Positions 3,523-45,423 of a stretch of 64,000 nucleotides of DNA are shown here, piece after piece (the stretch's first letter is position 1; every line of letters begins with the position of its first letter). The DNA lies in assembly GCF_002934265.1 (NCBI RefSeq), contig NZ_PTIX01000001.1, positions 496,001 to 560,000 of the forward strand. The letters run 5' to 3'. The translations under genes were made by a program, and so were the position numbers. The notes beneath the pieces are model-generated. The model saw nothing but the letters and a program-made list of their open reading frames with translations. It was not told the DNA's origin and ran no database searches. This stretch comes from Actinokineospora auranticolor. GTDB taxonomy: Bacteria > Actinomycetota > Actinomycetes > Mycobacteriales > Pseudonocardiaceae.

Positions 3523-4499
3523 CCACCACGCTCGACCGCCCCACCCTGCCCGCCCCGCGCGGCGAGATCTCCGACGCCGTGTCCACCGCGCTGCGCGGCG
3601 GGCGCCTGGGAACGCCGTCCCCGGCGGCGGACCCGCTGGGTGACGACGCCCAGCTGGCGCTGCACGTCTGCTACGAACTGCACTACCGGGGCTTCGCGGG
3701 TGTCGACCCCGCCTGGGAGTGGGACCCGTCCCTGCTGCGGCTACGCGCCGAACTGGAGCGCGGATTCCTGGACGCCCTGCGGGCGCGGGTGGCCGGTGGC
3801 TCCGATGTGGACGGTGAATTGTCGGGCCTGCTGGTGGAAGAGGTACCCGGGGACGGCGTCAGCCACTACCTGCGCGACGAGGCGCGGTGGTGGCAGATGC
3901 GGGAGTACTTCGCGCACCGGTCGATCTACCACCTCAAGGAGGCCGACCCGCACGCGTGGGTCATCCCGCGCCTGTCCGGCCGCCCCAAGGCGGCGCTGGT
4001 GGCCGTGGAGTTCGACGAGTTCGGTGGTGGACGCGAGGACCGCGTGCACGCCCGCCTGTTCGCCGACCTGCTCACCGCCGCCGGGATGTCGGCGGCGTAC
4101 CTGGGCTACCTGGAGCACGTGCCCGCCCACGCCCTCGCCACGGTCAACATGATGTCGCTGTTCGGGCTGCACCGGCGGTGGCGGGGCGCGCTGGTCGGCC
4201 ACTTCACCGCGGCCGAGATCACCACCGGCCCGAGCGCGGCCCGGATGGACCAGGCGCTGACCCGGCTGGGCGCGTCCGCACCGTGCAACCGGTTCTACAC
4301 CGAGCACATCGAGGCGGACGCCGTGCACGAGCAGGTGATGCGCAAGGACGTGGTCGGCGGTCTGCTCGAACAGGAACCCGACCTCGCCGCGGACGTCGTC
4401 TTCGGCATCCAGGCGACGGAACTGCTCGAACAGGACCTCGCCGACCACCTGCTCACCCACTGGCGCGCGGGCGAGTCGACTTTGCGCGAGCCGTTGTGA
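3519..4499 (+). CDS. Iron-containing redox enzyme, heme-oxygenase-like diiron family
   Basis: The 326-residue protein has the all-helical heme-oxygenase-like diiron oxidase/oxygenase pattern. His and acidic ligand candidates lie in the AHRSIYHLKEADPHAW, EFDEFGGG and YTEHIEADAVHEQ segments. Family members use a non-heme diiron centre to oxidise or fragment small molecules; the substrate here is unknown. Its ATG overlaps the ligase stop, with GGAGGG immediately upstream. The ligase upstream and the convergent CDGSH gene 10 bases downstream suggest an iron-dependent modification acting on a ligase product. That pathway is an inference from gene order. Confidence 0.8.
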   Translation: MTTTLDRPTLPAPRGEISDAVSTALRGGRLGTPSPAADPLGDDAQLALHVCYELHYRGFAGVDPAWEWDPSLLRLRAELERGFLDALRARVAGGSDVDGELSGLLVEEVPGDGVSHYLRDEARWWQMREYFAHRSIYHLKEADPHAWVIPRLSGRPKAALVAVEFDEFGGGREDRVHARLFADLLTAAGMSAAYLGYLEHVPAHALATVNMMSLFGLHRRWRGALVGHFTAAEITTGPSAARMDQALTRLGASAPCNRFYTEHIEADAVHEQVMRKDVVGGLLEQEPDLAADVVFGIQATELLEQDLADHLLTHWRAGESTLREPL

Positions 4500-16405: not shown

Positions 16406-17584
16406 TCACCCCTTGACGCAGACGACCTGCTTGAGCTTCGTGACGATCTCCACGAGGTCGTCCTGGTTGCGGATCACGTCGTCGATGTCCTTGTACGCGC
16501 CCGGGATCTCGTCGACCACACCCGAGTCCTTGCGGCACTCGACGCCGGCCGTCTGGGCCTTGAGGTCCTCGGTGGTGAAGGTCTTCTTGGCCTTGGTGCG
16601 CGACATCCGCCGACCCGCGCCGTGCGACGCCGACTCGAACGACTCCGGGTTGCCGAGGCCGCGGACGATGTAGGAACCGGTGCCCATCGACCCCGGGATG
16701 ATGCCCAGCTCACCCCGGCCCGCGCGGATGGCGCCCTTGCGGGTGACCAGGACCTCCTCCCCGAAGTGCACCTCCTCCGACACGTAGTTGTGGTGCGCCG
16801 AGATCGGGTCCTCGAAGGTGACGATCGGGAACTGGCGGCGCAGCACGTCGCACACCAGGCGGAGCATGACCCCGCGGTTGCGGCGGGCGTAGTCCTGCGC
16901 CCAGTACAGGTCGTGGCGGTACGCGGCCATCTCGGGGGTGCCCGCGAGGAACACGGCCAGGTCGCGGTCGAGCAGCTCGGTGTTGTGCGCCAGCTTGCGC
17001 GCGACCCCGATGTGGTGCTGGGCCAGCACGTTGCCGATCCCGCGCGACCCCGAGTGCAGCATCACCCAGACCTGCCCGGTCGTGTCCAGGCAGATCTCGA
17101 TGAAGTGGTTGCCGCCACCCAGCGTCCCCATCTGCTGCACCGCGCGCTTGCTGTTGGCCTTCACCACCGGGGTCAGGTCGTCGAAGGCGTTCCAGAAAAC
17201 CTTCCAGTCCCGCGCGTCCCGGCGCGAGAACGCCGCGTCCTTGTGCGCGCCGAAGCCCACCGGCACCGCCGCCTCGATCGCCTTGCGCAGCGGCGCCAGC
17301 GTCGCGGGCAGGTCGGCCGCGGTGAGCGACGTGCGGACCGCGGTCATACCGCACCCGATGTCGACCCCGACCGCCGCGGGCGAAACCGCATCCCGCATGG
17401 CGATGACCGAACCGACCGTGGCGCCCTTCCCGAAGTGGACGTCGGGCATGACGGCCACGTGCTTGTAGGCCCAGGGCAGGGCCGCGATGTTGTAGAGCTG
17501 CTGCATGGCAGCCCACTCGACATCCTCGGGCTTGGCCCAGAGCTGGATGTCGACGTTCTTCCCCTTGAGGGTCGTAGCTGCCAT
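16406..17584 (-). CDS. rtcB: RNA-splicing ligase RtcB
   Basis: The 392-residue protein is a GTP- and Mn-dependent RNA ligase that joins 2',3'-cyclic phosphate (or 3'-phosphate) ends to 5'-OH ends. Family motifs are present in order: MPDVHFGKGATVGSV, DIGCGM with the metal-binding cysteine (Cys78), GTLGGGNHFIEI, HSGSRGIG, and SHGAGR with the histidine that receives GMP. The length is normal for bacterial RtcB. No archease or RtcR/RtcA gene is adjacent. A second, unrelated RNA ligase gene lies at 44.0 kb. Confidence 0.95.
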   Translation of the reverse strand: MAATTLKGKNVDIQLWAKPEDVEWAAMQQLYNIAALPWAYKHVAVMPDVHFGKGATVGSVIAMRDAVSPAAVGVDIGCGMTAVRTSLTAADLPATLAPLRKAIEAAVPVGFGAHKDAAFSRRDARDWKVFWNAFDDLTPVVKANSKRAVQQMGTLGGGNHFIEICLDTTGQVWVMLHSGSRGIGNVLAQHHIGVARKLAHNTELLDRDLAVFLAGTPEMAAYRHDLYWAQDYARRNRGVMLRLVCDVLRRQFPIVTFEDPISAHHNYVSEEVHFGEEVLVTRKGAIRAGRGELGIIPGSMGTGSYIVRGLGNPESFESASHGAGRRMSRTKAKKTFTTEDLKAQTAGVECRKDSGVVDEIPGAYKDIDDVIRNQDDLVEIVTKLKQVVCVKG

Positions 17585-43957: not shown

Positions 43958-44021
43958 CCTGCTGATTATTTTCTGTTATGCCAATTGATACAACAGGAAG
44001 TCGGCGGCTAGCGTTCCGACC

Positions 44022-44825
44022 ATGACCGAGGGCAGGGGCCGCGGCAGGCCCCGCAAGGACGCGGACGCGCTCGCCAGGTGGACGCCACCGGAGGGCTGGT
44101 CGCGGCTGGTCGCCTGGGTGTCGCCGGAGGAGAAGAAGGCGCTCAAGCACGTCGCCGTCGAGGCGGGCGTCTCGGTCGCGGATCTGGTTCGGTCGCTGGC
44201 CGCCGGGCTCACCGCCGGGGTCGTCTCGGCCGAGGAGCTGGTGGGTCAGGTCGTGAAGGGCAGGCACGTCATGGAGAAGATCCCCACGCTGTTCGAGCGG
44301 GACGACCGGTTCAAGGTCGTCGACCGCCCGCGCGCCGAGTGCGCGTGGGTGTTCGACGGCGCCGGTGTCGGCACGGAGAAGCTGGACGGCACCAACACCC
44401 GCCTCACCACCCGCGCCGGGCACCTCGTGCGCGTCGAGAAGCGCCGCAACCCCGGCAAGGACCACAAGGCCCGGGGCATCGTCGACGGCTGGTACGTCGA
44501 CACCGACCCCTCCGCCGCAGACGACAAGTGGATCCTCGCCGCCGCCCACAACACCGACGTGTCGGCGTGGCCCGACGGCGAGCACTCCTGCGAGGCGCTC
44601 GGTCCCCGGATCCAGGGCAACCCCCTGGGCCTGGACGACCACTTCTGCCTGCCCTTCGACCTCCAGGCCCCGCGGTACCCGGAGGTCCCGCGCACCTTCG
44701 AGGGCCTCCGCGGCTACCTGTCCACCCTGGACAGCCGGTTCGCGCCGGGGCACCTCGCCGAGGGCATCGTCTTCCACCACCCCGACGGCCGCCGCGCCAA
44801 GATCAAGCGCAAGGATTTCGCCTGA
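44022..44825 (+). CDS. RNA ligase-family protein with N-terminal ribbon-helix-helix-like segment
   Basis: The 267-residue protein contains the nucleotidyltransferase motifs of ATP-dependent RNA ligases: motif I TEKLDGTN with the adenylated Lys120, a GPRIQGNPLG block at 194-203, motif IV AEGIVFHHPDG and motif V AKIKRKDF (Lys260/Lys262). It lacks the extended C-terminal domain of T4 Rnl1, so it is a compact ligase. The first 70 residues are different: a GRGRPRKDADALARW AT-hook-like start and a WVSPEEKKALKHVAVEAGVSV helix pair resembling a ribbon-helix-helix or Arc-type DNA-binding segment. A DNA- or RNA-guided repair enzyme is inferred. The upstream region is A+T-rich. Confidence 0.75.
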   Translation: MTEGRGRGRPRKDADALARWTPPEGWSRLVAWVSPEEKKALKHVAVEAGVSVADLVRSLAAGLTAGVVSAEELVGQVVKGRHVMEKIPTLFERDDRFKVVDRPRAECAWVFDGAGVGTEKLDGTNTRLTTRAGHLVRVEKRRNPGKDHKARGIVDGWYVDTDPSAADDKWILAAAHNTDVSAWPDGEHSCEALGPRIQGNPLGLDDHFCLPFDLQAPRYPEVPRTFEGLRGYLSTLDSRFAPGHLAEGIVFHHPDGRRAKIKRKDFA

Positions 44826-44856
44826 CCGGCACGGCGCGCCACCCGAGGGAGTCCGG

Positions 44857-45423
44857 ATGTCGCAGTACGTCGTGGTCGCGGCCACGATGACCATCGCCCA
44901 GCCCCGGCTGCGGTCCTACCTGCGCGCGCCGGTCGCCCCGGCTTCCACCTGGTCCGAACAGGACTGGGCGGGCGTCTGCGACCCGTGGCCCCGGTACCGG
45001 GCGGAACTGCCGTCCGCCATCGCCGAGTGCGACCGCTGGATCAAGGGCGACTACGCGGACCTGCTGCGTGACTTCGACGAGCTCACGCTGCGCCACGACG
45101 ACGCCACCGACTCCCTCCTCCTCGAATTCGACACCCGAGCCGACTTCCAGCTCCCCACCCTGATCTGGGCCTGCTGCGTCCTGCGCGGCGTCACCCCGTT
45201 CATGGCCGACGACGACTCCGGCTGCGCCACCATCACCACCGACTGGGACGACGACGCGGAATTGCGCCTGCGCCTGTCCCCGAACCGTTCCGCGTTCCTC
45301 GACCCCGATCGGGACCGCGCCGCCATCGCCAAGGCGAAAGACGCCGATTTCGACGTCCGCCTCGCCATTTCCGACGCCGACCCGGACGAATCCGGCGCCG
45401 ACGTCCTCGACCGCCTGACCTGA
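44857..45423 (+). CDS. Uncharacterised acidic protein
   Basis: The 188-residue protein is rich in Asp/Arg, with no membrane helix or recognisable motif. Segments such as LRDFDELTLRHDDATDSLL and PTLIWACCVLRGVTPFMAD suggest a compact globular domain. GAGGGAG precedes ATG 44857. It lies 31 bases after the RNA ligase gene and is probably co-transcribed with it, so it may be a partner of the ligase. Confidence 0.6.
   Translation: MSQYVVVAATMTIAQPRLRSYLRAPVAPASTWSEQDWAGVCDPWPRYRAELPSAIAECDRWIKGDYADLLRDFDELTLRHDDATDSLLLEFDTRADFQLPTLIWACCVLRGVTPFMADDDSGCATITTDWDDDAELRLRLSPNRSAFLDPDRDRAAIAKAKDADFDVRLAISDADPDESGADVLDRLT

Follow-up and report, generated by a model that had tools for sequence, protein, structure and literature searches.

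A single gene of Actinokineospora auranticolor, at positions 44,022 to 44,825 on the forward strand of the window (the whole 64,000-nucleotide stretch of DNA analysed here), joins an AT-hook, a ribbon-helix-helix (RHH) domain and an RNA ligase domain in one protein of 267 residues, and a conserved element resembling an operator lies across its own predicted promoter. We propose, with a probability of about 0.7, that the product is, like PutA, an enzyme that represses its own gene; it would act through the operator in its promoter, with a regulon of one gene and, as the likely logic, enzyme titration. The sequence-only reading had found a DNA-binding domain on an RNA-end-joining enzyme unusual; the conserved operator in the gene's own promoter, just outside the segment which that reading covered, is the likely explanation. 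The fusion, its conservation, the operator, the uniqueness of that operator and its loss together with the RHH domain are all computed results.

The ORF is a real gene. It was recovered as a self-match in its own assembly, its codon-position GC content (0.71/0.49/0.97) is coding-like, and its relatives, at 62–81% identity, align over almost its full length. The catalytic domain occupies residues 84–267 (44,271–44,822, forward strand), and PHROG 14301 (RNA ligase) matches residues 84–266 with an E value of 1.6e-20. The ligase motifs that had been read from the letters as intact (Lys120, EGIV and KIK) proved to be invariant in an alignment of 34 sequences: Lys120, the predicted adenylylated lysine of motif I (KxDG; codon at 44,379–44,381, forward strand), lies within TEKLDGTN, E247 within EGIVF and K260/K262 within AKIK, and D122 and E191 are likewise invariant. 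Using the AlphaFold model of the protein (mean pLDDT 78.9, pTM 0.60), Foldseek ranked Yasminevirus RLIG1/C12orf29 first (E 4.1e-7), and VIA-align also gave the Yasminevirus RLIG1 structure, 9c6l_B, as the best match (Z 11.0, rmsd 3.6, 167 residues), followed by a Naegleria RNA ligase at Z 9.5. Motifs I, III, IV and V (K120/D122, E191, E247 and K260) align with those of 9c6l, the motif I segment of this alignment scoring −2.5 bits. The family profile reaches Yasminevirus RLIG1 by sequence too (E 0.008); a single-sequence search against solved structures returned no match for the ligase protein. We call the catalytic domain RLIG1-like because the fold and profile matches point to RLIG1 and 13 of the 34 family members match the Pfam RLIG1 profile (PF17720) at E ≤ 0.1, the best at 2.5e-5, although the A. 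auranticolor protein itself gives no match at E ≤ 1. The likeness thus named extends to a minimal nucleotidyltransferase domain with the KxDG lysine and the motif III, IV and V residues, whereas an invariant Phe, F212, stands where Yasminevirus RLIG1 has its motif IIIa His (alignment read by hand), and the N-terminal AT-hook and RHH domain are missing from the phage and viral relatives that we found. We predict an RLIG1-type (DUF5565/C12orf29) RNA ligase that is ATP-dependent and joins 5'-phosphate and 3'-hydroxyl ends. Several bacterial, viral and phage RLIG1 homologues are reported to join tRNA halves bearing a 5'-phosphate and a 3'-hydroxyl in vitro (PMC11494293).

Residues 1–70 had been suspected of being an AT-hook/RHH-like segment, and weak Pfam matches (below the gathering cut-offs), structure matches to RHH proteins and conservation across phyla now speak for that view. 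The AT-hook, RGRGRPRK at residues 5–12 (44,034–44,057, forward strand), falls within a Pfam AT_hook match (PF02178, residues 4–15, E 0.0068) slightly under the gathering score, and its GRPRK is found in 41 of 43 loci whose ligase carries an RHH domain (RHH+ loci), missing from L042 and L054. The RHH domain proper spans residues 26–66 (44,097–44,219, forward strand). The Pfam NikA-like RHH profile matches residues 31–65 at E 5.5e-5 (23.7 bits, where the cut-off is 27) and is matched by 22 of the 34 family members at E ≤ 0.1. Helices at residues 35–48 and 52–65 are predicted in two models, and Arc repressor (1myl) superposes on residues 26–66 with an rmsd of 1.7 Å over 41 residues (Z 6.2; Z 4.4 for the isolated N-terminus); further structure matches of the N-terminus are RHH repressors and antitoxins, CopG, NikR and PutA among them. 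The first-ranked match of the isolated N-terminus is McdB (Z 4.7), which is not an RHH protein, and the Foldseek E value for the isolated N-terminus is only 0.32. The β-strand of the RHH domain is not formed in either monomer model; that strand needs a dimer. A connector helix follows in the AlphaFold model at residues 70–84 (44,229–44,273, forward strand).

Conservation is the stronger argument here. Between Actinomycetota and other phyla (18 actinobacterial against 8 other-phylum rows, L042 and L054 left out) identity is 0.64 in the RHH domain, 0.83 in the AT-hook and 0.68 in the ligase, so that the RHH domain, with its predicted helices, is held about as closely as the enzyme and does not behave as a disordered tail. 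R28 and W32 do not vary, and 25 of 26 rows have V30; by comparison with CopG, we take R28, V30 and W32 to be the DNA-facing residues of the strand. Residues 26–66 model as an RHH domain behind an AT-hook, and the N-terminus would bind DNA as a dimer or tetramer. Arc, CopG and NikA, the RHH repressors and antitoxins among which the best structure matches of residues 26–66 lie, are stand-alone regulators or antitoxins, whereas here the RHH domain forms one protein with a nucleic-acid ligase.

The fusion is not confined to this strain. A profile scan of contigs found RHH domain and ligase fused in 43 of 52 genome loci (L021–L061, L067 and L071), mostly in Actinomycetota; the remainder are 6 loci with a complete catalytic domain and no RHH domain (RHH−) and 3 fragments. 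Outside Actinomycetota the fused loci come from 8 metagenome bins of three other phyla, with taxon labels that rest on binning, and contamination of these bins by actinobacterial copies is unlikely because the copies are only 62–68% identical. Of the 298 genomes searched within the order, 20 have a match to the ligase, 10 of them with the full RHH-ligase and 3 by weak, partial matches; the gene is missing from the 5 other genomes of the same genus in this set. A phylum-wide search of 396 genomes found a full-length copy in the A. auranticolor genome only, plus one relative without the RHH domain and one weak match, and one plasmid record holds a full-length copy at 75%. Phage and viral relatives consist of the catalytic domain alone: among the matches listed, which cover 80 of 186 viral or phage-relative loci, no alignment starts before residue 53, and in 20 phage records none starts before residue 56. 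At one Actinomadura locus (L034:6479-6601) a second, partial ligase C-terminus (residues 227–267, 85%) follows the full gene at a distance of 1.7 kb.

Upstream of the RHH-ligases lies the element that we regard as the operator. It surfaced as ATTTTCTGTTATGCCAATTGACACAACAGAAAAT, identical upstream DNA that was being read in differing frames in the translated flanks of relatives. In A. auranticolor the putative operator is ATTTTCTGTTATGCCAATTGATACAACAGGAAGT (43,968–44,001, forward strand), with 12 of 17 symmetric pairs, a symmetry equalled by 2 of 50 shuffles, and its core is TTATGCCAATTGATA (43,976–43,990, forward strand). The most symmetric copies are those of L056 (16 of 17 pairs), L035 (15) and L060 (13), each with 0 of 50 shuffles as good; across the RHH+ loci, the best symmetric stretch centred on the operator beats at least 47 of 50 shuffles in just 11 of 53. 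The right arm is poor in most copies. In an alignment on the core of 19 loci that have a recognisable one, selected at about one per genus, the mean fraction of the commonest base is 0.89 in the left arm and core, 0.47 in the right arm, and 0.40 and 0.42 in the flanks.

Inside the operator lies a predicted −35 box, TTGATA (43,985–43,990, forward strand), which reads TTGACA in most relatives; the predicted −10 box, TAGCGT (44,009–44,014, forward strand), follows at 18 bp and stands 7 bases before the start codon. This arrangement recurs: 36 of 45 loci with a core have TANNNT 16–18 bp from the −35 embedded in it, and in 34 of those 36 it ends 6–7 bases before the start codon. Because of this short distance, the promoter is probably leaderless, with the operator on its predicted −35. 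Two variants, read by eye, deserve mention. The Catenulispora loci L051 and L052 have a shortened dyad, TTTTCTRTTGACACAAYAGAAAA, upstream of the ligase, in which the same outer arms stand about 9 bases closer, near one helical turn. At L053 the usual element is replaced by another inverted repeat, CCATAATT ... AATTATGG, and the strand residues of its RHH domain read GRLSVW where SRLVAW is usual; the changed repeat and the changed strand may reflect co-evolved specificity.

The element is close to unique in the genomes that carry it. Searched for in 298 genomes of the order with up to one mismatch allowed, TTNTGCCAATTGRYACAA turned up in 8, once in each and in every case 30–55 bases upstream of an RHH-ligase. 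These 8 belong to the 10 genomes that encode an RHH-ligase, and none of the other 288 has the site; the reversed pattern, used as control, gave one match in all 298. Since the motif was derived from these same loci, its presence beside the ligase is by construction, and the added information is its near-absence elsewhere. The two RHH-ligase genomes lacking the site are G013 (L008), with one mismatch in the core, two in the longer pattern, and no AT-hook, and G054 (L010), with an altered N-terminus. A wider pattern, itself derived from the RHH+ loci of 12 chosen genomes and searched in these, recovered the ligase site in 12 of 12 and one extra site in one genome. In the A. auranticolor genome itself a perfect match, over 18 bases, occurs once. 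We rejected a wider regulon in this genome, as the two further sites with 3 mismatches, against 1 for the control pattern, are no more than chance would give. The operator occurs almost nowhere else in the genome, and therefore the regulon appears to be the ligase gene alone.

Where the RHH domain is absent, so is the operator. A core within 4 mismatches is present at 46 of 53 RHH+ loci and at 0 of 16 RHH− loci, a count that leaves out L018–L020 (partial matches), includes at least four organisms twice (L002/L043, L006/L030, L008/L042 and L010/L054, with identical upstream DNA), and has distant relatives (33–46%) and fragments among the 16. The seven RHH+ loci without a core are L010, L054, L038, L051, L052, L053 and L071, of which L010 and L054 seem to be one organism. 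On a catalytic-domain tree of 70 rows, all 5 independent pairs show RHH domain and operator shifting in the same direction (sign test, p 0.0625; five pairs can give no lower value, 0.05 being out of reach). A 76-row tree, whose bootstrap had not settled, gave 3.5 pairs changing in the same direction, 0 in opposite directions and 0.5 without difference over 4 supported pairs, with 6 changes of the RHH domain and 12 of the operator. Taking phages as outgroup, the best tree reads as one gain of the RHH domain and five losses; the supported branches force just 4 changes. One loss appears to be recorded in the DNA itself: upstream of the Kitasatospora ligase L064, which has lost its RHH domain, the DNA can still be aligned to the stretch that holds the operator in its RHH+ sister L046 (none of 200 shuffles did as well), but the core has decayed to 7 mismatches. 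The upstream regions of four other RHH+/RHH− pairs had no comparable similarity. At L062 (about 3985–4001) the left operator arm, AATTTCTGT, stands directly before a truncated ORF whose first matched residue is 63, as if a single deletion had taken core and RHH domain together. Taken over these loci, the ligase seems to be tied in evolution to its own operator and not to the gene downstream of it.

In the mechanism that we propose, the AT-hook and RHH domain would hold the ligase, as a dimer or tetramer, on the operator over its own −35 box, and the ligase so bound would repress its own transcription; DNA binding and repression, like the ligase activity, are what we infer from sequence and models. 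Operator and gene could then move between genomes as one autonomous unit, and once the RHH domain was lost the operator would be useless and would decay. The signal for induction is a matter of speculation. Because the repressor would be the ligase itself, its substrate is the natural candidate, and the likely logic is titration of the enzyme, as with PutA: free ligase would occupy the operator, and nicked or broken RNA, e.g., tRNA halves, would engage the catalytic domain, leading to derepression and more ligase. The ligase would then act as a sensor of RNA damage whose adenylylated or RNA-engaged form leaves the operator, with no kinase, sigma factor or second messenger, in a unit that spreads between phyla. 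This fuller sensing role we put forward tentatively, as less likely than not.

Plain homeostatic autorepression, in which the RHH domain keeps the ligase at a low level and RNA damage is not sensed, has in our estimate somewhat less than an even chance. All of the operator evidence fits it equally well, and no sensor domain is apparent besides the catalytic domain. The five losses of the RHH domain imply that the enzyme can dispense with it, and its retention across phyla suggests more than the setting of a level, which argues weakly against homeostasis as the whole account. It is improbable that the element is instead bound by a separate host regulator and that the RHH domain serves otherwise, for example as a tether between ligase and nucleic acid. 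In favour are the ability of AT-hooks and basic segments to bind RNA and the 7 of 53 RHH+ loci that have no core. However, a site present once per genome, and in none of the 288 genomes of the order that have no RHH-ligase, would leave that regulator with no other target, and the element is absent where the RHH domain is absent. We give very little credence to the element being an end or attachment site of a mobile unit that carries the ligase: the patchy distribution, the 5 same-genus genomes without the gene and the relatives across phyla would suit it, yet the 3' flank is not conserved, the spacing to the start codon is fixed with −35 and −10 embedded, and the RHH-less copies lack the element. 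Least credible is a two-gene module of the ligase and the acidic protein encoded downstream, as the sequence-only reading had it, for which the 31-base gap on the same strand speaks and against which stands the result that neither the 71 other loci nor the 297 other genomes hold a homologue of that protein.

The downstream ORF (44,857–45,423, forward strand, 188 residues) does begin 31 bases after the ligase stop, as had been described, and is coding-like (codon-position GC 0.68/0.50/0.93); what did not stand is the coupling. Its product has no match in Pfam, NCBIfam, PHROG or PADLOC. The search for co-occurrence found no second genome with both genes: homologues are lacking in the 297 other genomes of the order and at the 71 related loci, 52 of which have a full-length RHH-ligase gene. 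We accordingly rejected a conserved link between the two and regard the ORF as an orphan outside any conserved unit, with co-transcription possible in this one strain. The wider neighbourhood is no more constant. Over the 52 loci and the A. auranticolor locus, the 25 largest clusters listed contain, apart from the ligase and the shadow frames that overlap it, no ORF family present at more than 6 of 53 loci, and most of these families reflect synteny within Amycolatopsis. The neighbouring MPAB gene has counterparts in 2 of the 5 same-genus genomes (about 71%), with no ligase, SDR or downstream ORF within about 1.5 kb upstream of them; the SDR search in these genomes gave generic family matches only. 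PADLOC phage-defence models matched neither the ligase nor the downstream protein. tRNA genes are reported in over 20% of DUF5565 neighbourhoods in a ProFaNA analysis (PMC10364804). The RHH branch does not share this enrichment, since a predicted tRNA lies near 4 of 43 RHH+ loci only; in the window itself no tRNA gene was found.

An enzyme with an N-terminal RHH domain that acts as autogenous repressor has a precedent in PutA (trifunctional proline utilization A), which controls the put regulon (PMC5293562). The parallel is functional only, binding to its own promoter being a prediction for the ligase, where the putative operator overlaps the predicted −35 of that promoter as the comparison would have it; the catalytic domains are unrelated, and in place of the put regulon the target here is apparently the ligase gene alone. 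In Salmonella, the RNA repair genes RtcB and RtcA are tied to RNA damage, tRNA fragments being described as activators of RtcR (PMC7790460). The proposed system would likewise link the expression of RNA repair to RNA damage, but RtcR is a protein of its own, a sigma-54 activator that carries a CARF domain, whereas here a single polypeptide would be both regulator and ligase, and the regulator would be a repressor. The window does encode RtcB (16,406–17,584, reverse strand; PF01139, E 2.3e-129), confirming the earlier statement that a second, unrelated RNA ligase is present; RtcB is of another family and joins other RNA ends than an RLIG1-type ligase.

Among the papers that our searches of open-licence PubMed Central listed, none describes an RHH-RNA ligase fusion or its operator in title or abstract. 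We know of no comparable enzyme-repressor in RNA repair. If the proposal is right, an RNA repair enzyme gauges its own need, with repressor, sensor and ligase in one chain and a single DNA target, and offers a simple test system for the path from RNA damage to transcription outside the RtcR/CARF route. It would also place a relative of human RLIG1, a ligase whose role in physiology is still under study, where a promoter fusion can read the inducing signal.

A different setting for the same catalytic domain is seen in Kutzneria, where RHH domain and operator have both been lost. At L063 (4016-6252) and L065 (4001-6219) the RHH-less ligase is directly followed by a gene for an RNA ligase with a P-loop kinase; at L065, as read by eye, the ATG of this second gene overlaps the ligase stop. 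The L063 product matches PF09414 (E 3.9e-32) and AAA_33 (E 4.3e-21), and it weakly matches bacterial Pnkp in the kinase part of the latter. The pair looks like a compact operon for RNA end healing and sealing, and this gene arrangement sets the catalytic domain in such a context. The A. auranticolor genome has a protein that matches, at 35%, the kinase part alone.
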